A DNA stretch of 29,154 nucleotides from a virus. The notes below the pieces were generated by a model. That model was given only the letters and a program-made list of their open reading frames with translations. It was not told the origin of the DNA and did not search any database. Positions 2,983 through 25,018 of this stretch are shown in pieces (the first letter of the stretch is position 1; each line of letters begins with the position of its first letter). The stretch spans positions 1 to 29,154 of the IMG/VR virus record IMGVR_UViG_3300021185_003291; one strand, written 5' to 3'. Made by a program: the position numbers and the translations under genes.

Positions 2983-3366
2983 ATGTCAGAAGTAAATTTA
3001 GTTACCTATCCGGATTTTGATCACAACAGTGATTACAAAATATGTCTAGTTGCTGATACACCATCAGCAGTTGAGCTACTAGACATTATTGAGCGATTTA
3101 AAGGAAGAGTTAGTATTCATTGTGTAACACATGATACTACTGATTTTGATTGGATTGCATCAACAGTAAATGCAAGTAATTTTACATTTATAAATAGTTG
3201 TACAAAACAAGCTCACTTATATTTAGGCTGGATTCTTGGAAGACCAAATGTTTGGCATAATATACAAAGTGCAGAGAAAGTTAATGCTAAATACTCGATA
3301 AGCATATTAACTGCATATATTAAACATTTGGAACAAGAAGAGGAAAACACAAAGCATGGCGTATAA
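2983..3366 (+). CDS. Hypothetical protein, 127 aa
   Basis: A soluble-looking protein that starts one base after the stop of the preceding gene and overlaps the bS21 gene by 11 bases, so the three are probably co-transcribed. The N-terminal half alternates beta-like and helical stretches (YKICLVADTPSAVELLDIIE), suggesting a small Rossmann-like or flavodoxin-like fold. The C-terminus is charged. I recognise no catalytic motif and assign no function. Confidence 0.75.
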   Translation: MSEVNLVTYPDFDHNSDYKICLVADTPSAVELLDIIERFKGRVSIHCVTHDTTDFDWIASTVNASNFTFINSCTKQAHLYLGWILGRPNVWHNIQSAEKVNAKYSISILTAYIKHLEQEEENTKHGV

Positions 3367-3607
3367 TCGCAAATTTGATAGTAAAAAGAATGAAGCCAAT
3401 TTTGGTGATGGATTAACAGTAACCGTAATAAACAACGACGTTGCAAAAGCAATTCGTAAATTAAAGAAAAAAGTTAACAATGAAGGTATACTACAAGACT
3501 ATCGAGAAAAGCAGTACTTTGTGAAGCCAAGTGAACAACGTAGACTTGCTAAAAAGGCAGGTAGAAAACGTTGGTTAAAGAAAAAACAACAAATTGAAAA
3601 TAGTTAA
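3356..3607 (+). CDS. rpsU: Ribosomal protein bS21 homologue
   Basis: An 83-residue basic protein. From about residue 21 it follows the bS21 pattern: VTVINNDVAKAIRKLKKKV, then an aromatic/basic YREKQYFVKPSEQRR segment, and a lysine/arginine-rich C-terminal helix ending KAGRKRWLKKKQQ. bS21 binds the 30S platform near the anti-Shine-Dalgarno region and aids initiation. Phages of SAR11 and other aquatic bacteria are known to carry bS21 genes, thought to replace the host copy and bias initiation toward viral mRNA. AGGA at 3341-3344 serves as ribosome binding site inside the upstream gene. The extension before the core is longer than in E. coli bS21. Confidence 0.85.
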   Translation: MAYNRKFDSKKNEANFGDGLTVTVINNDVAKAIRKLKKKVNNEGILQDYREKQYFVKPSEQRRLAKKAGRKRWLKKKQQIENS

Positions 3608-3622
3608 TTTTACATATATTTC

Positions 3623-3651
3623 TTGACTTTTGAGATAAATATGTATATAAT
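3623..3651 (+). promoter_or_regulatory. Promoter pair (sigma70-like and late) for hsp20
   Basis: TTGACT at 3623-3628, a 17-base spacer and a perfect TATAAT at 3646-3651 form the best -10 box in the window. A late octamer GATAAATA lies inside the spacer at 3634-3641. The sigma70 start is predicted near 3658, the first base of a leader hairpin. The overlap suggests expression both early and late in infection. Confidence 0.8.
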
Positions 3652-3657
3652 GCATAT

Positions 3658-3734
3658 AGTACAAATGGTTTGTGCTATTGTAACCGGAACGCCTAAATGG
3701 GTTCCAAAATATAAATCTTGCTTATTATAAGGAG
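3658..3734 (+). promoter_or_regulatory. ROSE-like RNA thermometer in the hsp20 leader
   Basis: Three consecutive hairpins fill the leader. Hairpin I pairs 3658-3665 with 3669-3676 (8 bp, one U-G). Hairpin II pairs 3686-3693 with 3699-3705, with G3691 bulged. Hairpin III pairs 3717-3724 with 3728-3734 and buries the Shine-Dalgarno AAGGAG (3729-3734). In hairpin III the strand opposite the ribosome site reads UUGCU (3718-3722) with G3720 unpaired, which matches the U(U/C)GCU signature of ROSE elements controlling small heat shock genes in alphaproteobacteria. The known mechanism is melting at higher temperature to release the ribosome site. Pairings were found by eye; no folding energy was computed. 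Confidence 0.7.
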
Positions 3735-3741
3735 AACTAAA

Positions 3742-4188
3742 ATGACAAGAATTACCTCACTGGACTTAAATCCATTCTACCGCAACTCAATTGGATTCAA
3801 TCAACTTTTTGATAGAATTTCAAGTAACATGGAAGCGGCATCACAACAAAATTATCCACCATATAACATTATCCGTAAAGATGATGAACACTACTTTATT
3901 GAGATTGCAGCCGCTGGTTTCTTAAAACCAGATATTGCTATTACTATGGAAAACGGTACATTAACTGTAACCGGTGCCCAAACTAAAGAAGATGTTGATG
4001 GTTTAGATGAAGCAGATGGATATGAGTACCTACACAAAGGGCTCGCAAATCGTAACTTTACTAGAACGTTTAATCTTGCTGATTTCGTTGAAGTAAAGGA
4101 TGCTAGTTTGAATAATGGAATTTTAAGTATTCACTTAGAAAAAATTATTCCAGACGCAATGAAGCCAAAAACTATTGAAATAAATTAG
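3742..4188 (+). CDS. Small heat shock protein, Hsp20/alpha-crystallin family
   Basis: A 148-residue holdase chaperone. The N-terminus LNPFYRNSIGFNQLFDRI is typical of IbpA-like bacterial proteins. The alpha-crystallin domain follows from about residue 37: IIRKDDEHYFIEIAAAGF, the turn NGTLTVTG and the C-terminal NGILSIHLEKIIP strand, ending with KPKTIEIN, the usual C-terminal I-x-I region. Length is normal for the family. The ATG at 3742 is preceded by AAGGAG at 3729-3734; the in-frame TTG at 3718 lies inside the leader hairpin and is rejected. Hsp20 genes are common in T4-like cyanophages and are thought to help virion protein folding. Translation is probably temperature-controlled. Confidence 0.92.
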   Translation: MTRITSLDLNPFYRNSIGFNQLFDRISSNMEAASQQNYPPYNIIRKDDEHYFIEIAAAGFLKPDIAITMENGTLTVTGAQTKEDVDGLDEADGYEYLHKGLANRNFTRTFNLADFVEVKDASLNNGILSIHLEKIIPDAMKPKTIEIN

Positions 4189-4214: not shown

Positions 4215-4247
4215 GATAAATAGATGTGAAGGGTTCTTTCCCTTCAC
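4215..4247 (+). promoter_or_regulatory. Late promoter with a 5'-terminal hairpin
   Basis: GATAAATA at 4215-4222 matches the late octamer of T4-like marine phages. The expected start near 4228 falls on a perfect 8-bp hairpin, GTGAAGGG (4226-4233) with CCCTTCAC (4240-4247), around a pyrimidine-rich hexaloop. No T run follows, so it is a poor terminator for hsp20; a protective 5' hairpin or regulatory leader of the following cassette fits better. Confidence 0.6.
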
Positions 4248-4266
4248 ATTATTTGGTACTTATATT

Positions 4267-5850: not shown

Positions 5851-6156
5851 ATGACAGATACAAAAGAAATAGTCAAAACTGAAACAAAGATAGAGTTCAA
5901 AGAACCTAACTTGTGGAAAGTTATTATACTCAATGACGAGATAACAACAATGGAATTTGTACTTGAAGTACTTACTAACTTCTTTGGTTATAACGAAGAT
6001 GGTGCAATGGAAATGACTTTAAAAATACATGAAGATGGAGCGGCAGTAGTTGCAACATATCCTTATGAACTTGCTGAACAAAAAGGTATTGAAGTTACAC
6101 TAGCGGCTAGAACTGATGGTTATCCGTTAGAAGTTCGCATTGAAGAAGACGCCTAA
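5851..6156 (+). CDS. clpS: ClpS-like N-degron adaptor
   Basis: A 101-residue ClpS homologue of normal length. A flexible charged N-terminus is followed by WKVIILNDEITTMEFVLEVL, the hallmark segment, and TLKIHEDG. By comparison with E. coli ClpS, the residues that hold the N-terminal amino acid of substrates are kept: Asn28-Asp29, Thr32, Met34 and His60; the second Asp of NDD is Glu30. ClpS delivers proteins with destabilising N-terminal residues to the ClpAP protease. A phage copy could redirect host proteolysis or protect virion proteins; that is inference. It abuts the channel cassette, and a new promoter follows at 6178, so it is probably the last gene of the late operon. Confidence 0.88.
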   Translation: MTDTKEIVKTETKIEFKEPNLWKVIILNDEITTMEFVLEVLTNFFGYNEDGAMEMTLKIHEDGAAVVATYPYELAEQKGIEVTLAARTDGYPLEVRIEEDA

Positions 6157-7005: not shown

Positions 7006-7421
7006 AGGTTGGAATAACTTTTAGTACATTTGATTTACTTCATGCAGGGCATATAGGTATGCTTCGTGAAGCAAAAACATATTGTGATTACTTAATTGTT
7101 GGATTACAAAGCGATCCAACAATAGATAGACCTGATACAAAAAACAAACCAATACAAACAATGGTAGAACGATATGCACAACTTAATGCATTGAAGTTTG
7201 TTGACGAGATTGTACCTTACCAAACAGAAGAAGACGTAATTGATATATTGGAACTATTTCAAATAGACGTAAGATTTCTTGGTGACGAGTATAGAGATAA
7301 AGATTTTACAGGTAAGGATGTATGTCGTAAAAGAGACATAGACTTACACTTTAACAAACGTGACCACAGATTTAGCAGTAGTGGTTTACGACAACGTGTG
7401 TGCGACAATCAATCACAATAG
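7002..7421 (+). CDS. TagD-like cytidylyltransferase
   Basis: A 139-residue nucleotidyltransferase of the glycerol-3-phosphate cytidylyltransferase type. The first strand and loop read [13 protein letters not shown] with the HxGH catalytic motif (His14, His17). [18 protein letters not shown] follows, and near the C-terminus [11 protein letters not shown] takes the place of the family's RTEGISTT motif. Such enzymes activate a phosphorylated polyol or sugar with CTP, or in some branches ATP. The start is a TTG that overlaps the cupin stop codon; no ATG gives the full first strand. Phages carry such enzymes in envelope or surface sugar pathways. The exact substrate cannot be told. Confidence 0.85.
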
Positions 7422-7440
7422 AAGAGGAAAACCTTTGAAT

Positions 7441-8394
7441 ATGAAAATCATTACAGGAAATGCTAATCCTGAATTAGCAACAAGTATTGCAGATCACTGC
7501 TTTGCGAGTTTAGTGCCGGCTAAAATCAGTACTTTTGCTGATGGCGAGTGTAGTGTAGAATTTTTAGAAAACATTCGAGGTGAAGATGTTTTTATTATTC
7601 AAAGTACAAGTAATCCTGTCAACGATAGTTTAATGGAACTTATGATAATGATTGATGCTGCAAAACGTAGTAGTGCAAGTCGTATTACTGCTGTTATTCC
7701 ATATTTTGGTTATGCAAGACAAGATCGTAAAAGTGCAAGTCGTACACCTATTACTGCAAAACTAGTTGCTAACTTAATTACAGTAGCAGGTGCAGATAGA
7801 GTACTTACAATGGATTTACATGCTGGACAGATACAAGGATTTTTTGATATTCCAGTTGATGACTTAACAAGTAGAACAGTATTTGCAAAAGACATTAAAC
7901 GTACTATTGGTATTATTGATGATCCTGACATTGAACAAGTAGGCACAGTATTTGTATCACCTGATGCAGGTGGTGTTGTTAGAGCCCGTAAGTTTGCTGA
8001 CATGTTTAATGGTGATATTGCTATTGTAGATAAACGTAGACCCGAAGCAGGTAAAAGCGAAGTTATGAACTTGATTGGTGAAGTACAAGGCAAACATGCT
8101 ATCCTAGTAGATGACATTGTTGATAGTGGTGGCACATTATGTAATGCCGCAAAAGCAATTATGGATGCTGGTGCAGTAAGTGTTCGTGCTTATATTACTC
8201 ACGGAGTACTATCAAACGAGGCATGTCAAAAAGTAGAAAAAAGTGTTTTAGAAGAATTAGTAGTAACAGATACTATTGCAGATCGTTGCCCAAAAAATTG
8301 TAAAAAAACAAGACAAGTAAGTGTTGCACAACTAATTGGTGAAGCACTAAGACGTATTACAAACGAAGAAAGTGTATCAAGCCTATTTACATAA
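7441..8394 (+). CDS. prs: Ribose-phosphate pyrophosphokinase (PRPP synthetase)
   Basis: A 317-residue enzyme, close to the 315 residues of E. coli Prs, that makes PRPP from ribose 5-phosphate and ATP for purine, pyrimidine and NAD synthesis. Characteristic parts are present: [13 protein letters not shown] at the N-terminus, [10 protein letters not shown], the ATP loop [28 protein letters not shown], and the PRPP loop [11 protein letters not shown] near residue 222. AGAGGA at 7423-7428 is 12 bases before this ATG and 6 before an in-frame TTG at 7435, so the true start may be two codons earlier. Together with GMP reductase downstream it forms a purine module. PRPP synthetase is a known but not universal auxiliary gene of large phages. 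Confidence 0.95.
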
Positions 8395-8781: not shown

Positions 8782-9936
8782 ATGAGAATAGAAACAGATT
8801 TAAAATTAGATTATAGTAATGTATTAATTAGGCCAAAACGAAGTACGTTAGGAAGTCGTAAAGATGTTAAACTAACAAGACGTTACAACTTTCGTCATTA
8901 TAGCCCAGACACTTCATTTATACAACATCTTAATGAAGGAGAAAATCACTATGAAGGTATTCCAATTATGGCTTCAAACATGGACGGAGTTGCTACATTT
9001 GAGATGGCTGATAAGTTAAGCAAAATGGGTTTGTTTACTTGTTTAGTAAAGTCGTATACAGTTGATGAACTTATTAAATTCTTTGATCCTGATGACTTTG
9101 ATACACTAGATAGACGTATTGAGAATGTTGCATATAGTATGGGTATTATGCCAACTGACTTAGAAAAATTTAATGAAGTAATGGAAAAAACCTCCAGAAC
9201 GGTTAAATATGTCTGTGTAGATGTTGCTAATGGATATAGCACACGATTTGCTGGTTTCATCAAACAGTTAAGAGCACAATATAATGACATTGTTATTATT
9301 GCAGGTAATGTAGTAACAGGTGATCAGACACAGGAGTTAATTCTTAGTGGAGCAGATATTGTTAAAGTTGGTATCGGCCCTGGTAGTGTTTGTACTACTC
9401 GTTTACAAACAGGAGTGGGCTACCCTCAACTATCTGCGGTCATTGAGTGTGCAGATGCAGCTCATGGTCTTGGTGGTCATATTATTGCTGATGGCGGTTG
9501 CAGTACTCCCGGAGACGTGGCCAAAGCATTTGCGGGTGGGGCAGACTTCGTTATGTTGGGAGGAATGCTCGCAGGGCACGATGAAGGTGGGGGAGAAGTT
9601 TATACCCGGCACTTTGCAAGTGGTGAAGCAACACTATTAGATAATGGCAACTATATGCCACATTACGAACAAAAACAGTATGTACAGTTTTATGGCATGA
9701 GTAGTAAAGCCGCAAACGACAAGCACTTTGGTGGATTACAAGAATATCGTAGTAGTGAAGGTAGAGATGTAATGGTACCTTATAGAGGACCAGTTGAAAC
9801 AACAGTTAATGATATACTAGGTGGTATTCGTAGCACTTGCACCTATGTAGGCGCTTTAAAACTAAAGCAATTAAGCAAGTGTGCAACTTTTGTTATGTGT
9901 CCAGATACACATAATAGAGTATTTGAAAACAACTAA
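8782..9936 (+). CDS. guaC: GMP reductase
   Basis: A 384-residue enzyme of the IMPDH/GMPR family that reductively deaminates GMP to IMP with NADPH. The match to GuaC is close throughout: [15 protein letters not shown] at the start, [13 protein letters not shown], the catalytic loop [11 protein letters not shown] with Cys204, then [21 protein letters not shown] and FYGMSS. It lacks the CBS domains of IMP dehydrogenase. It is longer than E. coli GuaC (about 347) through insertions near residues 43-58 and 265-290. GGAG lies 7 bases before the ATG. In an AT-rich phage the enzyme could turn guanine nucleotides into IMP for adenylate synthesis (inference). The segment 9410-9615 is visibly richer in G and C than the rest. 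Confidence 0.95.
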
Positions 9937-12760: not shown

Positions 12761-12978
12761 CCCATACGTTTTTACTAATTGTTTACTTAGGACAAAAAAT
12801 AATTAATCAAGATATGTACTTCTATGACGTTGATAGATGTAAGTATTTTGCTGAAAGGATAACTAAACAACCAGCTGTACCAAATAGAACTGCAGGTGAA
12901 GATGAGCCCAAGACAATGAAATATACTGCGGTGTGTGAGCCACGCCGAGTTAATCCGTCAGGGGTAAGCATATATTAG
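12757..12978 (+). CDS. Small hypothetical protein, 73 aa
   Basis: Begins MTHTFLLIVYLGQKII, moderately hydrophobic, with two further cysteines (DRCKYFAERI and AVCEPRR). The ATG at 12757 overlaps the previous stop (ATGA); an upstream in-frame ATG at 12703 lies deep inside the neighbour and is rejected. The 3' end overlaps the end of the - strand Fis-like gene by 4 bases. The pattern of a C-xxx-FA and a late C-E-P resembles short phage proteins that describe no known family. Confidence 0.68.
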   Translation: MTHTFLLIVYLGQKIINQDMYFYDVDRCKYFAERITKQPAVPNRTAGEDEPKTMKYTAVCEPRRVNPSGVSIY

Positions 12979-13220
12979 GCAGAAACGTGAGTTTCTTTGT
13001 CTATCTCGTATTTTTTAATCTTATGTATTAATAAAGTACGTCCGATGCCTAAACTTTTTGCCGCGTGTGTTCTATTATAATTGCATTGATCAAGTGCTTC
13101 TCTAATTCGGACAACTTCAAGTTTAACAACTTCATCCGCGAGACCCTCAACAGGGTTAACGTCGTTGAAATATTCAAGTTGCTCCCAAATCCAATCTTGC
13201 TCTGTGCGTTCTTTACTCAT
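12975..13220 (-). CDS. Fis-like DNA-binding protein
   Basis: An 81-residue protein whose C-terminal half matches the Fis-type helix-turn-helix (HTH_8): LEVVRIREALDQCNYNRTHAAKSLGIGRTLLIHKIKKY, with the usual N-x-x-x-A-A-x-x-L-G-I pattern. In bacteria this domain occurs in Fis and at the C-terminus of NtrC-type regulators. Here it stands alone, behind a 40-residue acidic N-terminus. It is one of only three - strand genes in the window and faces away from the late operon at 13309. GAGG lies 9 bases before the ATG. It probably regulates transcription or DNA architecture; a dyad between it and the late promoter may be its operator. Confidence 0.85.
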   Translation of the reverse strand: MSKERTEQDWIWEQLEYFNDVNPVEGLADEVVKLEVVRIREALDQCNYNRTHAAKSLGIGRTLLIHKIKKYEIDKETHVSA

Positions 13221-13308: not shown

Positions 13309-13851
13309 GTGACATTACGATTTTTTATTGCAATACTACTTTACTTTTCAGTCGCCACGGCTATGGCTGCAGATCCTATTGTCACGGATAGCACGTCTAA
13401 TAGTACAGTTACTACAACTGGAAAGACAAAAACAACAGTTAAGAGTCCGCCACCGAGTGCGATATCACCAAGTATGAATAATAGTAATAGTGACCTATGT
13501 ACAGTAGGTATTGCCGGGGCCGTGCAAACACAAATATTAGGAATATCAGGTGGTTCAACAGTTAGAGATATGAACTGTGAAAGATTAAAGTTAGCAAAGA
13601 CAATATATGACATGGGCATGAAAGTTGCCGCAGTTAGTGTTATGTGTCAAGATGAGCGTATCTTTACTGCAATGGAAATGGCAGGAACACCTTGTCCGTT
13701 CTTAGGTAAGATTGGTGAAGAAGCTCAAAAAGAATGGGACGCTAAGCCTGAACTAAAGCCGACATCGGAAAAGGATAATGCTAACAATGATAAACTTAAA
13801 GGCGCCGCTATGGGCGTTGGTAGTGTTTTGTTACTTTTGCTTCTCCTTTAA
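13309..13851 (+). CDS. Small exported protein, 180 aa
   Basis: The GTG at 13309, preceded by GGGGAG at 13297-13302, starts a clear signal peptide (about residues 1-22, ending AMAA). Longer in-frame starts upstream would run through the late promoter and are rejected. The mature part has a Thr/Ser/Pro-rich linker (residues 25-60), a middle with four cysteines (DLCTVG, MNCERL, MCQDER, TPCPFLG), and a C-terminal glycine/leucine-rich hydrophobic tail (AMGVGSVLLLLLLL), probably a membrane anchor. The following gene overlaps its end by 74 bases. The likely role is in the envelope or virion exterior; family not recognised. Confidence 0.75.
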   Translation: MTLRFFIAILLYFSVATAMAADPIVTDSTSNSTVTTTGKTKTTVKSPPPSAISPSMNNSNSDLCTVGIAGAVQTQILGISGGSTVRDMNCERLKLAKTIYDMGMKVAAVSVMCQDERIFTAMEMAGTPCPFLGKIGEEAQKEWDAKPELKPTSEKDNANNDKLKGAAMGVGSVLLLLLLL

Positions 13852-16045
13852 TAGTTTAGCTCAAACAGCCTCGCCGACCAATCCAGTAACAACTAATCCA
13901 AATAGTATTAATCTAAATGATGGTACTATTGGGTCACCAACAAATGGATGTCCGTCTGGTACCTCTAGTGCATATGTATATGGATCAGGAAGTACCATAC
14001 GTTTTGGTGAGTGTGTTAATACATTCGCAGTAACATATGCAATTAATCAAGCATTACAAGGTACAGGCGTTAGTATAGATAAAGTTCATTATCAATGGAA
14101 GTATATTCATTGTTTTAATGCACCTAACCAGTTTTGTAGTCAAAATATTAGTGACAGAGTAAACACAACAACAGGTGCAGTTACAGATGATACTTATTGG
14201 GATGAGTTAGTTGTAGTTGTAGAACTAACTGATAGCAGTGGAAATGTAGTTGAAACTAAAACTTGGACAATGGACAGGTGGTATGATTGGCAAAATGAAA
14301 ATGCTCACAGTTTTAATGAAGTCAAAGAAGGTTCTACATACTGGCAGATACACGAAGACAATATAGAAATATATAATCACATAGATAAAACAGGAACAAT
14401 ACGCACACCAAATGCTGTTGGAGATGTGCGTTTTAGAATAAGTGGATACGACAAAGGTAATTGGGACGGTTACTATGGTCCTATTATAAAAGATTTCAAA
14501 ACTTGGTTTACTTATAGAGCAAACCCATGTAATGATACTGCATTATATGATCCAAGTTGTCCTGGTTATTCAGAAGCATATGCACAATACGAATACAATC
14601 AAAGTTGTGCCGCCAATGCACTTTATGATGCAGGATGTCCTGGTTATGCAACTGCATATTTTAACCAGCAATGTACTGCCGATCCGTTATACGACAGTGG
14701 TTGCCCAGGATACGCCTCGGCTTATTATACTCAACAGTGTACCGCAGATCCACTATACGATAGTGGCTGTGATGGTTATGCAGCCGCATATTACACACAA
14801 CAATGTACGCAAAACCCCCTTTACGACAGTGGATGTGATGGGTACGCGGCTGCATATTATACTCAACAATGTACTGCTAACCCATTATACGATAGTGGGT
14901 GCGATGGTTATGCAGCCGCATATTACACACAACAATGTACTGCTAACCCATTATACGATAGTGGATGTGATGGTTATGCAACTGCATATTTTAATCAACA
15001 ATGTAAGGCAAGCCCACTATATGATGCGGCTTGTACAGGACATTTTGAAGCACAATGTGATGCAAGTGCATTATACGATATTAGATGTACAGGATACGAC
15101 GTTGCATATTTAGAACAACAATGTATGTACAATCCGCAATATGATGAAACTTGTACTGGATACATTGAACCAATAATTGAAACAGACCCAGGAACTATAG
15201 TAGATGACGGTACAGGTACAGGAGATAGTATTGTTGATAGTGTTATAGCATTACCGGTTGAAATACCAGATATGATTATCTTACCTCCAGCACCTGCACC
15301 CGCACCAGCACCGGTTGTTGTAGTTGTAGTGCCCGTTGAAGTAGAAGTAACACCGGTTGAAATTACATTAGAACAAGAATTAGAAAATGAAATTGCAAAC
15401 ATAGAAGTAGCAGAAGCAGAGATATCAACTTCTACTACTGAAGAAAACACTACTGAAGTAATAGTAGAACCGGTTGAAGAAATAACAGAAGAAACAACAG
15501 AAGAAGTTGTAGTTGAAGAACAAACAGAATCTGAATCAGAAGGTGATCCAAGAGGTGATCAGATTAATGAATCTAAAGAAGAAACAACTGAAGAAATTGT
15601 AATAGATGAAGATGGTTCAGAAGAAGAGGTAGTAGAAGAAAAAGAAGAGAAGAAGGCTCCTGTTATAGTTAAGAAAACTGTAAAAAAGCCTGCCACAAAG
15701 AAAGTAGTAAAACTTAGCAAAACAGAAAAGAAAAAGGCTAAGAATAAAAAGATGAGAGAAATCATCAAAAAGAAACTGGCACTATTAGCCGTTACAATGG
15801 GCAAAGCACAAAGTTTAGAAAATCAACAGGCATTACAAGCACAAATAGCCGCATTGATTAACTTTGTTCCTGGCTTTAATGCATACGGAAAAGTAGCAAT
15901 ACCGGGCGTAAATTTTTATCAACCCGAAGCAATTTATTTAGATGAAAAGGTTCCAGAAAATCAAAGAGGATTAAGGAACGGACTAGCACAACAAATTCTA
16001 CATGAAAAAATGATAGATATGCAATACGAAAGGTTAACACAATGA
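13778..16045 (+). CDS. Large exported protein with 22-residue Cys/Tyr repeats
   Basis: A 755-residue protein with a signal peptide (about 1-29, ending SLAQ). Residues 30-245 form a globular region. Then come about ten repeats of 22 residues with the pattern C-T-A-D-P-L-Y-D-S-G-C-x-G-Y-x-x-A-Y-x-x-Q-Q (residues about 250-460). A Pro/Ala/Val segment follows, then a long Glu/Thr-rich acidic stretch, a lysine-rich stretch near 625-665 and a final helical domain. The start could be 13778 or the ATG at 13787; SD-like GGAAAAGG lies at 13767-13774. Two cysteines per repeat suggest a disulfide-braced or metal-binding rod, likely a fibre or surface protein. Genes before and after overlap, indicating one late operon. 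Confidence 0.8.
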   Translation: MLTMINLKAPLWALVVFCYFCFSFNSLAQTASPTNPVTTNPNSINLNDGTIGSPTNGCPSGTSSAYVYGSGSTIRFGECVNTFAVTYAINQALQGTGVSIDKVHYQWKYIHCFNAPNQFCSQNISDRVNTTTGAVTDDTYWDELVVVVELTDSSGNVVETKTWTMDRWYDWQNENAHSFNEVKEGSTYWQIHEDNIEIYNHIDKTGTIRTPNAVGDVRFRISGYDKGNWDGYYGPIIKDFKTWFTYRANPCNDTALYDPSCPGYSEAYAQYEYNQSCAANALYDAGCPGYATAYFNQQCTADPLYDSGCPGYASAYYTQQCTADPLYDSGCDGYAAAYYTQQCTQNPLYDSGCDGYAAAYYTQQCTANPLYDSGCDGYAAAYYTQQCTANPLYDSGCDGYATAYFNQQCKASPLYDAACTGHFEAQCDASALYDIRCTGYDVAYLEQQCMYNPQYDETCTGYIEPIIETDPGTIVDDGTGTGDSIVDSVIALPVEIPDMIILPPAPAPAPAPVVVVVVPVEVEVTPVEITLEQELENEIANIEVAEAEISTSTTEENTTEVIVEPVEEITEETTEEVVVEEQTESESEGDPRGDQINESKEETTEEIVIDEDGSEEEVVEEKEEKKAPVIVKKTVKKPATKKVVKLSKTEKKKAKNKKMREIIKKKLALLAVTMGKAQSLENQQALQAQIAALINFVPGFNAYGKVAIPGVNFYQPEAIYLDEKVPENQRGLRNGLAQQILHEKMIDMQYERLTQ
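14527..15165 (+). repeat. Tandem 66-bp coding repeats
   Basis: About ten in-frame units of 66 bases encode the Cys/Tyr-rich repeats; starts of successive cysteine codons, for example at 14672 and 14738, are exactly 66 apart. The central five units are nearly identical as protein but vary at synonymous positions (GCAGCCGCA against GCGGCTGCA, TACGAT against TACGAC), while the outer units have diverged at both levels. One unit near 15040 is shortened. Confidence 0.9.
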
Positions 16046-18706: not shown

Positions 18707-18782
18707 GCCGGTATAGCTCAGTTGGTAGAGCAATGGTTTTGTAAACCATAGGTCCCGAGTTCAAATCTTGGTGCCGGCACCA
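18707..18782 (+). tRNA. tRNA-Thr, anticodon UGU
   Basis: A 76-base cloverleaf with acceptor GCCGGTA/TGCCGGC, D-arm AGCTCAGTTGGTAGAGC, anticodon stem ATGGT/ACCAT and loop TTTGTAA (anticodon 18740-18742), and a T-arm with GTTCAAATC. CCA is encoded. It reads ACA, one of the commonest Thr codons in this genome. Confidence 0.95.
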
Positions 18783-18787
18783 TTATT

Positions 18788-18863
18788 GGGGGATTAGCTC
18801 AGTTGGGAGAGCGATGCCTTTGCAAGGCATAGGTCGTCGGTTCGAACCCGTCATCCTCCACCA
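18788..18863 (+). tRNA. tRNA-Ala, anticodon UGC
   Basis: A 76-base cloverleaf 5 bases after tRNA-Thr. Acceptor GGGGGAT/ATCCTCC has one G-U pair; anticodon stem ATGCC/GGCAT with loop TTTGCAA (anticodon 18821-18823); T-arm GGTTCGAACC; CCA encoded. It reads GCA, a dominant Ala codon here. Confidence 0.95.
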
Positions 18864-18899
18864 ATTTTTGATAAGTACATTATATATAAGGAATGTCAG

Positions 18900-19649
18900 A
18901 TGGCCGAATTTACAAATGTACTACAAGATAGACACACAACTTTTGCTTGGGACCAAGATAGAGTACCAAGTGAAGAATTATTACTAGACGTGTTAAACGA
19001 AGTTTATCAGCATGTACCTAGTAAGAACTTAATGTTTTCATATCAAATACGTTTACTTAAAAACGACAATGATGAAATTCGTAAAAAAGTAATGACTATA
19101 TGTCAACGTAATGCTAGTCATACACTTGAAGAAGATAGAGGAAACCCACAAGTACTTGCTCCGTGGTTAATTGGATTTAATGCAAGATGGGTTAGTGATT
19201 TAGAAAAACGTTATGAACATGATTCAAAACGTGGTGAGTTAAACGGACTTGGTACAAATCAAAGACGTACTGGTGCATCAGATAAAATCACAGAAGATGA
19301 AGCAAAGTTTTTAAGTGCCGGACAAACACAAAACGAAAACATTGAAATTGGAATTGCAAGTGCATTCATTATGTTAGCAATGGCTAATAGAGGAATACAA
19401 ACAGGCATGTGTCAAAATATTTGTAGAGACTACAAGTATGCAGAAGAATTATTTCAAGTAGATGACGATGAACGTGGTATGGACTTTAGATTTATTATGG
19501 GTGTAGGATACGGTAAAGACATTGATACACATCATGAATATTACGATCCACGTATAGGAAAAGACAAGAAAATTCCTTTTCCTCCAGCAATGGTAGAAAA
19601 AGTCTATCCAAGACCTCCAATGGAAGATATTATTAGAGTTATAAGATGA
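18900..19649 (+). CDS. Nitroreductase-like flavoprotein
   Basis: A 249-residue protein matching the nitroreductase fold: an N-terminal RHTTFAWDQDRVPSEELL segment with the Arg/His/Thr that contact FMN phosphate, VPSKNLMFSYQIRLL, then NENIEIGIASAFIMLAMANRGIQTGMCQNI, the glycine-rich helix and loop of the family. Members use FMN and NAD(P)H to reduce a wide range of compounds. The substrate here is unknown. AAGGA lies 8 bases before the ATG. It overlaps the acyl carrier protein gene by 4 bases and both lie between two tRNA pairs, which suggests a transferred block. Some nitroreductase-fold enzymes oxidise carrier-bound amino acids or thiazolines, so a joint reaction with the ACP is possible. Confidence 0.75.
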   Translation: MAEFTNVLQDRHTTFAWDQDRVPSEELLLDVLNEVYQHVPSKNLMFSYQIRLLKNDNDEIRKKVMTICQRNASHTLEEDRGNPQVLAPWLIGFNARWVSDLEKRYEHDSKRGELNGLGTNQRRTGASDKITEDEAKFLSAGQTQNENIEIGIASAFIMLAMANRGIQTGMCQNICRDYKYAEELFQVDDDERGMDFRFIMGVGYGKDIDTHHEYYDPRIGKDKKIPFPPAMVEKVYPRPPMEDIIRVIR

Positions 19650-19879
19650 ACGAATCAGACTACAGAGAACTTTGTGAAATAGTAGCAAAAGTTATTAAAA
19701 TAGATTCTAGTGAAGTATCATTAGATAGTAGTATTGATGATTTAGGCGGTGATAGTTTACACAGAGTTGAAATTATTATGGCACTAGAAGCAAAGTTTGA
19801 ATTAAGTATACCAGACGACTTTACTAACACTTACACCGGTGTAGAAGATTTAGCAAAGTTTATTCAGGATAACACATAA
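19646..19879 (+). CDS. acpP: Acyl carrier protein
   Basis: A 77-residue acidic four-helix protein. IDDLGGDSLHRVEIIMALEAKF carries the D-S-L motif with Ser37 as the 4'-phosphopantetheine site. The surrounding pattern (KVIKIDSSEVSLDSSI) is that of a fatty-acid type ACP. The start overlaps the stop of the nitroreductase-like gene (ATGA). No ketosynthase or acyltransferase gene lies nearby, so it would work with host enzymes or carry a substrate for the neighbouring flavoprotein. It depends on a host phosphopantetheinyl transferase. tRNA-Ser follows 2 bases after its stop. Confidence 0.9.
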   Translation: MNESDYRELCEIVAKVIKIDSSEVSLDSSIDDLGGDSLHRVEIIMALEAKFELSIPDDFTNTYTGVEDLAKFIQDNT

Positions 19880-19881
19880 AC

Positions 19882-19971
19882 GGACAGTTGGCTGAGCGGC
19901 TTAAAGCGGGGGATTACTAATCCCTTGTAGTAGCAATACTACCGTGGGTTCGAATCCTACACTGTCCGCCA
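19882..19971 (+). tRNA. tRNA-Ser with unusual anticodon ACU
   Basis: A 90-base type II tRNA with acceptor GGACAGT/ACTGTCC, discriminator G and encoded CCA. The anticodon stem GGGGA/TCCCT holds loop TTACTAA, so the anticodon (19916-19918) is ACU. A long variable arm (GTAGTA/TACTAC) and discriminator G fit serine. Bacterial tRNAs for AGU/AGC normally carry GCU; A at position 34 is rare and, apart from tRNA-Arg(ACG), rarely converted to inosine. AGT is by eye the favoured Ser codon in this window. Confidence 0.9.
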
Positions 19972-19974
19972 ATT

Positions 19975-19982
19975 TATAAATA
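19975..19982 (+). promoter_or_regulatory. Late promoter TATAAATA before tRNA-Gly
   Basis: Exact late octamer between tRNA-Ser and tRNA-Gly. Transcription would begin about 3 bases before tRNA-Gly and run into the radical SAM gene. Confidence 0.65.
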
Positions 19983-19990
19983 CTTGATAA

Positions 19991-20065
19991 GCGGGCGTAG
20001 CTCAGTGGTAGAGCATCTCGTTGCCAACGAGAATGTCGAGAGTTCGAATCTCTTCGCCCGCTCCA
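19991..20065 (+). tRNA. tRNA-Gly, anticodon GCC
   Basis: A 75-base cloverleaf: acceptor GCGGGCG/CGCCCGC, discriminator T as usual for Gly, anticodon stem TCTCG/CGAGA with loop TTGCCAA (anticodon 20023-20025), T-arm AGTTCGAATCT, CCA encoded. Confidence 0.95.
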
Positions 20066-23968: not shown

Positions 23969-25018
23969 ATGTTCAAGCAAGATGTAAAAAGAGTTGGCTT
24001 TGCATGTAAGTATATGCATCCTGATCAAACACAAAAGCCTAAAATACTAAAAGAAATACAATACAAGTATACAGAAGCAATGACTACTGTGGCTTGGCTT
24101 AAACGTCAAACTACTGAAGTTGCTGAGCAAAAGATGTGGGATATTATGGAACATAATATCATTAGTATGTACAACTTGATTGAATGGGTAGGTAACCAGC
24201 CAGAACATCTACGTATGGTACGTTTAGGTAGTAATCAGTTGCCTATGTACACACAACCTGACTTTAGATACTTTTGGCAAAAGCCAGATGTGAGAGAAGT
24301 ATGTGCAAAAGGCTATGCACGAGCAGGTGAAATTGCTAGAAAGTTAGATGTACGAGTAAGTATGCACCCTGGACAATTTTGTGTCCTTGCAAGTGACAAT
24401 CCAGACATAGTAGAACGTAGTATAGAGGAGTTTGAATATCATGCTGACATTATCCGATGGATGGGCTTCGGCCGCAAATTCCAGGACTTTAAGTGCAACG
24501 TCCATATCTCCGGTCGTCAGGGTCCAGCCGGTGTCAGAGCTGTCTTGCCAAGATTATCTCCGGAGGCGAGAAATACTATCACAATTGAAAATGACGAAAA
24601 CAAATGGGGTATTGAGGCGTCGCTCGAACTTGCCAAAGACGTACCACTTGTGCTTGACATACACCATCACTGGGTCAATTCAGGAGAGTATATTGAACCC
24701 ACCGACGATAGATGTTCTCGCATAATTGATTCGTGGCGTGGAGTACGTCCAGCAATGCACTACAGTCAGTGCAGAATTGATTACTTAGTTGATCATCCTA
24801 CTAACGTAAAGCCTGATATGGAAACACTACTTGAAACTGGTTACAAGAAACAAAAACTTCGTGCCCATAGTGACTACATGTGGAATGATGCATGTAATGA
24901 TTGGGCTATACAGTTCAATGATAAGTTTGATATTATGGTAGAAGCAAAGTGCAAGAATCTTGCAAGTAAGCAACTAGCAGAGACAAAAAAAGCGACTCTA
25001 GTAAATAGAGCCGCTTAA
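23969..25018 (+). CDS. uvsE: UV damage endonuclease UvdE/UvsE
   Basis: A 349-residue metal-dependent endonuclease that cuts 5' of pyrimidine dimers and other UV lesions to start excision repair. The TIM-barrel motifs are present: RVGFAC at 8-13, SMHPGQF at 131-137, IENDE at 206-210 and LDIHHH at 229-234, with metal-binding His, Glu and Asp. Length is normal for the family. AAGG precedes the ATG at about 8 bases. The part from about residue 158 to 252 is visibly richer in G and C, and a +1-frame reading frame runs through it. The last coding bases form the stem of a terminator that reads on the - strand. Confidence 0.93.
   Translation: MFKQDVKRVGFACKYMHPDQTQKPKILKEIQYKYTEAMTTVAWLKRQTTEVAEQKMWDIMEHNIISMYNLIEWVGNQPEHLRMVRLGSNQLPMYTQPDFRYFWQKPDVREVCAKGYARAGEIARKLDVRVSMHPGQFCVLASDNPDIVERSIEEFEYHADIIRWMGFGRKFQDFKCNVHISGRQGPAGVRAVLPRLSPEARNTITIENDENKWGIEASLELAKDVPLVLDIHHHWVNSGEYIEPTDDRCSRIIDSWRGVRPAMHYSQCRIDYLVDHPTNVKPDMETLLETGYKKQKLRAHSDYMWNDACNDWAIQFNDKFDIMVEAKCKNLASKQLAETKKATLVNRAA
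24985..25015 (-). terminator. Terminator of the - strand gene, inside the uvsE 3' end
   Basis: AGCG-A-CTCTA (24991-25000) pairs with TAGAG-C-CGCT (25006-25015), with one A-C mismatch. On the - strand the hairpin is followed by at least six T (complement of 24985-24990). It ends the gene at 25037-25345, while its bases also encode the last residues of UvsE. Confidence 0.75.

Follow-up and report, generated by a model that had tools for sequence, protein, structure and literature searches.

The window analyzed here, the 29,154-base virus record IMGVR_UViG_3300021185_003291 read on one strand, encodes a small heat-shock protein of the IbpA kind (hsp20, positions 3742-4188, plus strand, 148 amino acids; PF00011, E-value 6e-15; phrog_432, E-value 1.4e-41), and the presence of a short, two-hairpin ROSE-like element just upstream of this gene, at positions 3683-3734, was confirmed. 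We consider it likely that this element is a phage-encoded RNA thermometer that controls hsp20. This interpretation draws on the conservation of the structure, on covariation in the first of the two hairpins (hairpin I) and on the link with chaperone genes, all of which are observed in the present analysis.

By analogy with the bacterial relatives of the element, we propose that the transcript would begin at or just upstream of the element and that, in the cool, hairpin II would pair AAGGAG with CUUGCUU, leaving one G bulged, and would hold down the translation of hsp20. On warming, the weak hairpin II would melt and hairpin I would stay folded; the exposed Shine-Dalgarno sequence would then allow the ribosome to bind and the phage small heat-shock protein to be made.

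Architecture of the hsp20 leader

The leader spans 84 nucleotides and comprises a promoter-like box followed by three hairpins, two of which are conserved; the ROSE-like class ranges from two to four. Hairpin I (3686-3705, plus strand; GGAAC-[G3691]-CC/GG-GUUCC; -9.5 kcal/mol) pairs 3686-3690 with 3701-3705 and CC 3692-3693 with GG 3699-3700, with G3691 remaining unpaired. Hairpin II (3717-3734, plus strand; CUU-[bulged G3720]-CUU/AAG-GAG; -2.2 kcal/mol) consists of CUU 3717-3719, the bulged G3720, CUU 3721-3723, the loop AUUAU and AAGGAG 3729-3734, the Shine-Dalgarno sequence that it is predicted to sequester; hsp20 starts at 3742, 8 bases on from the end of this hairpin. Both hairpins are matched by the Rfam model ROSE_3 and by an independent model, R1 (see below). 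As in the ROSE-like class, UUGCU (3718-3722) lies opposite the Shine-Dalgarno sequence, the full partner of which is CUUGCUU and not the four U of a fourU thermometer.

The third, clade-specific hairpin (3658-3676, plus strand, 8 base pairs, -5.3 kcal/mol, z-score -3.7) is located at the 5' end of the predicted transcript, given that a sigma-70-type promoter, TTGACT-17-TATAAT (3623-3651, plus strand, 11 of 12 matches in a consensus scan), places the start near 3658. Promoter-like matches in this region are at the chance level (4 found, 4.7 expected); the sister leaders L002, L005 and L010 (loci are denoted by L numbers) carry TTGACA and TATAAT at the same place. Judging by eye, the 5' hairpin is kept with sequence changes in these three leaders and is absent from L006-L009. 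The 97-nucleotide fold of the leader has a z-score of -2.6. A preceding reading of the DNA alone (hereafter, the sequence-only reading), which had described three hairpins, the first starting at the predicted transcription start and the last hiding the Shine-Dalgarno sequence behind UUGCU with a bulged G, is borne out in all these respects by inspection of the sequence and by single-strand folds.

Model searches in the window and in related phages

Of the Rfam ROSE families invoked in the sequence-only reading, RF02523 (ROSE_3), which we presume to model the Pseudomonas elements, matches the leader at 34.3 bits (E-value 1.2e-5 for a 301-nucleotide stretch and 2.9e-7 for the whole record), a score below its curated cut-off, and RF00435 (ROSE) and RF01832 (ROSE_2) gave no match to the leader up to an E-value of 10. 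The covariance model R1 was constructed from 12 leaders of other phages, none of which belongs to the clade of the window; run with filters off, it matches 3683-3734 at 38.1 bits (E-value 3e-8), the next match in the window having an E-value of 0.95. The relatives searched with this model were viral loci with a gene for a related protein, of which the best 80 of 97 were used. Together with the window, 75 of the 81 sources are matched at E-values up to 1, every match being located in the hsp20 leader and two of them covering a single hairpin only (L040, where the contig end cuts the element, and L062); no match was obtained with R1 in the remaining six (L019, L023-L026 and L050).

Hsp20 matches were detected in 507 of 50,697 phage records, at least 463 of these 507 bearing cyanophage names, and 19 named records were taken from this set: Pelagibacter phage HTVC104P, Methylophilales phage Melnitz-3, Agrobacterium phage Atu_ph07, Sinorhizobium phage Phosso, Pseudomonas phage PA5oct, together with 14 cyanophages or marine Kyanoviridae, syn9 being one of these. 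In all 19, the best R1 match lies directly before hsp20, with E-values of at most 0.005 in 17 and weaker values in Atu_ph07 (0.13) and S-TIM5 (0.43). Among the same records, ROSE_3 matched only Melnitz-3 at E-values up to 0.5.

Covariation and the bulged G

The sequence-only reading had named covariation in homologous phage leaders as a check on the structure, and such covariation was found, in hairpin I. In an alignment of 45 distinct rows from the R1 matches, which was fitted to the model and therefore favours it, 97.8% of the cells pair, and in hairpin I, 7 of the 8 pairs show changes in both partners, a number reached in 12 of 500 shuffles. The covariation score of this alignment is 0.359; shuffled alignments score 0.145, with none of 500 attaining the observed value, and slid structures do not exceed 0.090. 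A wider alignment of 68 rows, to which named phages, dnaK leaders and bacteria were added, gave similar values (97.7% paired; 8 pairs with changes on both sides; score 0.450, compared to 0.156 for shuffled alignments). In this wider alignment, the variation in hairpin II consists mainly of C-G and U-G at one pair, with changes on both sides at 2 of 6 pairs, in 3 cells. Inspection by eye also reveals rare compensatory forms, in which the outer stem of this hairpin has changed on both sides and the bulged G is kept, namely those of HTVC104P (AUC-G-CUU/AAG-GAU) and S-TIM5 (CCAC-G-CUU/AAG-GUGG).

A search for a hairpin with a bulged G on the Shine-Dalgarno sequence was positive in 57 of the 63 distinct hsp20 leaders of phages that had been selected by their coding sequence, compared to 6 of 208 control ribosome sites; the control set was reduced from 215 to 208 sites when 7 of its 13 hits were dropped by eye as alternative hsp20 starts. 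This is the fair comparison, the higher figure of 250 of 271 for hsp20 being biased by loci that were chosen by the motif. Four of the 63 leaders escaped detection, three of them (L324, L326 and L329) differing at the Shine-Dalgarno sequence or the loop and one (L337) having a misplaced start. In L044 and L050, the bulged base is A rather than G (CUU-A-CUU), so that these leaders are natural variants of the key base.

Promoters upstream of the element

The sequence TATAAATA, which we take to be the T4 late promoter, occurs exactly in 53 of 232 distinct viral upstream stretches (mononucleotide shuffles: 1.6), and 143 stretches contain it when up to one mismatch is allowed (shuffles: 26.6); 130 occurrences of the one-mismatch class lie 15-18 nucleotides before the NGCC of hairpin I. 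TATAAT is present in 79 of the 232 stretches, with 50 occurrences at -16 that overlap the TATAAATA-like class, and part of the one-mismatch set may therefore be ordinary -10 boxes. Within the clade of the window, the element is kept and the promoter differs: it is sigma-70-like in the window, L002, L005 and L010, and is replaced by TATAAATA in L006-L009.

Association with chaperone genes

A DNA pattern blind to coding was scanned over IMG/VR in two versions and yielded at least 242 sites in 240 loci, which are often close relatives, so that the counts are not independent. Among the matches listed, 225 of 242 sites lie directly before hsp20; of the remaining 17, eight are cut by the contig end (several with Hsp20-like first residues), four precede dnaK, four precede a short open reading frame (ORF) that is followed by hsp20, and one (L315) precedes a 14-codon ORF with groES, groEL and hsp20 downstream. 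In phages, the element is tied near-exclusively to chaperone genes.

Some contigs carry more than one element. In L139, L240 and L190, R1 identifies two each, one at dnaK and one at hsp20; in L315, the two lie before the 14-codon ORF and before hsp20; and in L049, before hsp20 and before a 73-amino acid ORF for which no Pfam family was found. At the fourth dnaK site (L181), there is one element, and no hsp20 lies within 6 kb downstream. In L139 and L240, hsp20 is followed by clpS, a gene that is close to hsp20 in the window as well.

The location of the element before heat-shock genes in a wide range of phages suggests that phages turn on their own chaperones by heat. More tentatively, and with rather less confidence than we place in the thermometer itself, these data can be read as a phage heat-shock regulon of ROSE RNAs, in which separate thermometers at hsp20 and dnaK, in cyanophages, pelagic phages and jumbo phages, together with feedback by Hsp20, would let the chaperones follow heat and the aggregate load without a host heat-shock sigma factor. 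Such a regulon would include operons headed by small ORFs, with clpS or groESL nearby, and often a TATAAATA- or TATAAT-like box at a constant position before hairpin I. If so, the small heat-shock genes of phages, a common feature of the marine phage records searched, would as a rule be controlled by thermometers, which would provide both a direct, testable link from water temperature to phage gene expression and a control logic for hsp20 and dnaK in lytic phages, where these genes are otherwise puzzling; the phages would also be a source of natural variants of ROSE, possibly tuned to cool water.

Several neighboring genes were noted in passing. By eye, a ClpX-like ORF is located upstream of the dnaK-hsp20 operon of L240, and the groES-groEL-hsp20 cluster of L315 and L468 is followed by a ClpS-like ORF. 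Control of groESL by the first L315 element is doubtful because the 14-codon ORF and a promoter-like TTGACA/TATACT intervene. The small head ORFs of L127, L234, L283 and L467 gave no Pfam family over the cut-off, and their identification as phasins, which we considered, finds no supporting family.

Bacterial counterparts and the host

GTDB genomes scanned with the TGCC version of the pattern contained at least 118 sites. Among the matches listed, 74 of 118 lie before hsp20 (in Pelagibacteraceae, SAR86, Woeseiaceae, Burkholderiales, Enterobacteriaceae and others), and the other 44 include 40 with either no start or an ORF shorter than 100 codons downstream, which is what chance matches would produce in a collection of this size. 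In each of 10 genomes chosen for carrying a pattern site, R1 finds one element at an E-value of at most 0.1. Given that bacterial hsp20 leaders carry the same element, the phage element is of a bacterial kind. In the SAR11 genome family, 30 of 80 genomes have an R1 match (28 of 34 matches being located within 400 nucleotides before hsp20) and hsp20 itself is present in 55 of 80, so that many SAR11 hsp20 genes come without a detectable element.

The sequence-only reading had derived an alphaproteobacterial host from the thermometer. This proposal did not stand: the element is common to alpha-, beta- and gammaproteobacteria and to cyanophages, and its presence in SAR11, SAR86, Burkholderiales, Enterobacteriaceae and cyanophages makes it uninformative with respect to the host. 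Among the 74 GTDB sites before hsp20, four cyanophage-like loci (L384, L411 and L416 by tree, L427 by sequence) were found inside bacterial or archaeal bins, with the labels Lewinella, Thermoplasmata and Nonlabens on three of the bins; these are probably phage contigs binned with cells.

Predicted folding and the proposed response to temperature

When the leader is folded alone (3658-3744), the pairs of the Shine-Dalgarno sequence are predicted to hold at 15 C (probabilities of 0.91-0.99), and AGGAG becomes more open on warming, with a mean unpaired probability of 0.02 at 15 C and of 0.19 at 42 C. At 10 C, the median unpaired probability in 46 phage leaders folded alone is 0.10, compared to 0.40 in 12 control sites. 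Structure prediction thus supports sequestration of the Shine-Dalgarno sequence for the leader alone, without settling the case of the mRNA. The expectation from the sequence-only reading that this sequence is paired at low temperature accordingly holds for the leader alone at 15 C and fails when coding sequence is included, 3732-3734 being then placed in a loop.

A temperature response of the phage leader is proposed by analogy with its bacterial relatives. In five ibpA genes of Pseudomonas, ROSE leaders with two hairpins confer 3.3- to 8.3-fold induction between 25 and 42 C (PMC3669281), and in a ROSE-like element of oppF, loss of the bulged G by deletion weakens heat induction (PMC11342760).

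Several observations weigh against a thermometer of the ROSE kind. With 10 or more nucleotides of coding sequence, RNAfold prefers a competing hairpin (UCUUG 3716-3720/CAAGA 3746-3750, plus strand) that buries the AUG, and with 30 nucleotides, the Shine-Dalgarno sequence is 0.67-0.73 unpaired at all temperatures tried; the AUG is then 0.00-0.04 unpaired from 10 to 42 C. By contrast, in Escherichia coli ibpA, the same test with coding sequence leaves the Shine-Dalgarno sequence only 0.05-0.09 unpaired. Across the phage leaders with coding sequence, the median at 10 C is 0.31, only somewhat more closed than the 0.40 of the controls. Hairpin II alone is thermodynamically ordinary (z-score -0.89; 30 of 200 shuffles are as good), and 4 of its 6 pairs are invariant in the 45-row alignment. 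ROSE_3 matches only 10 of the 80 related viral records at E-values up to 0.1 (nine of them at hsp20) and also 2 of 14 control genomes, and its gathering cut-off of 43 bits is not reached by the window leader, which is therefore not filed here as a member of RF02523. Furthermore, marine hosts experience small changes of temperature. Given that the stability of hairpin II alone is ordinary, the support for this predicted hairpin is its conservation.

Alternative explanations

The most probable of the alternatives is that the leader is mainly a sensor of proteostasis, with phage Hsp20 binding to its own ROSE leader and repressing translation until aggregates titrate the protein, heat being only one trigger; we regard this as possible albeit unlikely. 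There is a precedent in E. coli, where IbpA acts through the ibpA leader to repress its own translation and requires R93 and an aromatic residue at position 34 to do so (PMC10474464). The window Hsp20 has R, Y and R at the positions equivalent to 93, 34 and 97, and of 271 distinct viral Hsp20s, 269 have R at the R93 position, all 271 have Y or F at position 34, and 267 have R, K or H at position 97. However, K98, a further requirement in E. coli, is retained in only 7 of the 271 and is T in the window, and the R93-equivalent arginine may be kept for folding, its column ranking among the best conserved of the domain (6 of 87 columns, its own included, are at least as conserved). The conservation of R93 in these sequences permits a sensor of protein load without showing one.

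A second alternative, which appears doubtful, is that the leader of the window is bistable, the Shine-Dalgarno hairpin and the start-codon hairpin being mutually exclusive and both blocking initiation, somewhat as in the lambda cIII mRNA, which reportedly adopts two conformers. The start-codon hairpin predicted by RNAfold with coding sequence, with the AUG closed over the whole temperature range, is what this scenario calls for, but nearest-neighbour energies omit the non-canonical contacts of ROSE elements. Moreover, CAAG follows CUUG leaders in 18 of 52 cases, little more commonly than it follows CUCG leaders, which are unable to use it (52 of 189). These counts across phages do not support the start-codon hairpin as a selected switch.

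Still less probable is the view that the leader is a passive relic, which the phage acquired from bacteria together with the gene and does not exploit as a sensor. The same element is indeed present at the hsp20 genes of SAR11, SAR86, Burkholderiales and enteric bacteria, but compensatory changes have accumulated through deep divergence, among the 63 coding-selected leaders only 2 carry a different base at the bulge and 4 went undetected, a second element is found at dnaK, and the structure is kept behind different promoters (sigma-70-like and TATAAATA) in the clade of the window. Finally, chance hairpins in an A+T-rich leader, for which it could be said that hairpin II alone is weak and that AAGGAG pairs readily with pyrimidine tracts, are refuted for practical purposes by the conservation across phages, that is, the R1 match, the covariation, the 225 of 242 listed sites and the 57 of 63 leaders compared to 6 of 208 controls.

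Gene content and affinities of the window

Upstream, hsp20 is adjoined by a gene for ribosomal protein bS21 (3356-3607, plus strand; PF01165, E-value 1.2e-16). Given that bS21 is thought to affect initiation, a possible link between a phage-encoded bS21 and an adjacent Shine-Dalgarno switch is worth a look. A 10-base-pair hairpin 3' of hsp20 (4224-4249, no strand assigned) resembles a terminator on the minus strand. Further downstream are genes for ClpS (5851-6156), ribose-phosphate pyrophosphokinase (7360-8394), a GMP reductase/IMPDH-like protein (8782-9936) and UvdE (23969-25018); by eye, a GMP-reductase-like ORF near hsp20 and clpS is also found in L139 and L234. The 755-amino acid ORF at 13778-16045 has a repeated YTQQCTADPLYDSGCPGYA-like unit and a Pro/Glu-rich middle, and a Pfam search at an E-value of 0.001 gave no family for it. 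The end of a minus-strand ORF (12975-13220) resembles a Fis-type helix-turn-helix by eye, and the region 18707-20065 contains four tRNA genes (Thr, Ala, Ser and Gly) around a 249-amino acid ORF and, by eye, an acyl-carrier-like ORF (19646-19879).

A search for a T4 capsid gene in the window and in seven sister contigs, all of which are possibly fragments, found none, and we therefore do not call this phage T4-like. A 648-amino acid ORF of the window partly resembles Pelagibacter phage Mosig (51.5% identity, covering 26% of the query), and the GMP-reductase-like protein shares 45% identity with its counterparts in Xanthomonas and Stenotrophomonas jumbo phages. In a tree of 64 Hsp20 rows, the window groups with L005, L006 and L010 (support 100); the deep forks are unresolved, so that neither a single origin nor repeated transfer of hsp20 can be claimed.

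Comparison with known RNA thermometers

The lambda cIII thermometer is said to switch between two structures of its mRNA. Phage RNA thermometers already in print comprise, in addition to lambda cIII, those of SP-beta blyA and of a Caudoviricetes sigma-70 gene (PMC11182007, PMC10586365), and they share with the element described here a location at a phage gene whose translation is reported or proposed to follow temperature. Those of blyA and the sigma-70 gene are fourU thermometers, and none of the three is a ROSE element or serves a chaperone gene. The sequence-only reading knew of no description of a phage that senses temperature through a host-type thermometer; this remark has to be restricted to the ROSE kind and to hsp20, for which no report in a phage was found in a literature search of mainly open-access papers.

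Outside phages, the cyanobacterial hsp17 thermometer likewise belongs to a small heat-shock gene and holds the ribosome site in a hairpin (PMC4477652), but the cyanophage leaders analyzed here have the two-hairpin ROSE form. The enterobacterial ibpB leader is closely similar, with hairpin I AUGCUC-G-CC/GG-GAGCAU followed by CUC-G-CUU/AAG-GAG; that of E. coli differs in having extra sequence, able to form a hairpin, between the two hairpins, and R1 therefore matches it as two weak pieces (13.9 and 10.2 bits).

The closest likeness is to the short ROSE-like thermometers of Pseudomonas ibpA, which also have two hairpins with a small heat-shock gene downstream (Krajewski 2013, PMC3669281). U(U/C)GCU opposite the Shine-Dalgarno sequence is shared with these elements and with ROSE_3, and the unpaired G in hairpin I with the ROSE_3 consensus line. 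Unlike the Pseudomonas elements, the element of the window resides in a phage genome, is preceded by an extra 5' hairpin, scores below the Rfam cut-off and follows a promoter that looks sigma-70-like rather than sigma-32 (sigma-70 hexamers being the only ones scanned). The kind of RNA is itself known; what is new here is the breadth of the element in phages and its pairing with dnaK.
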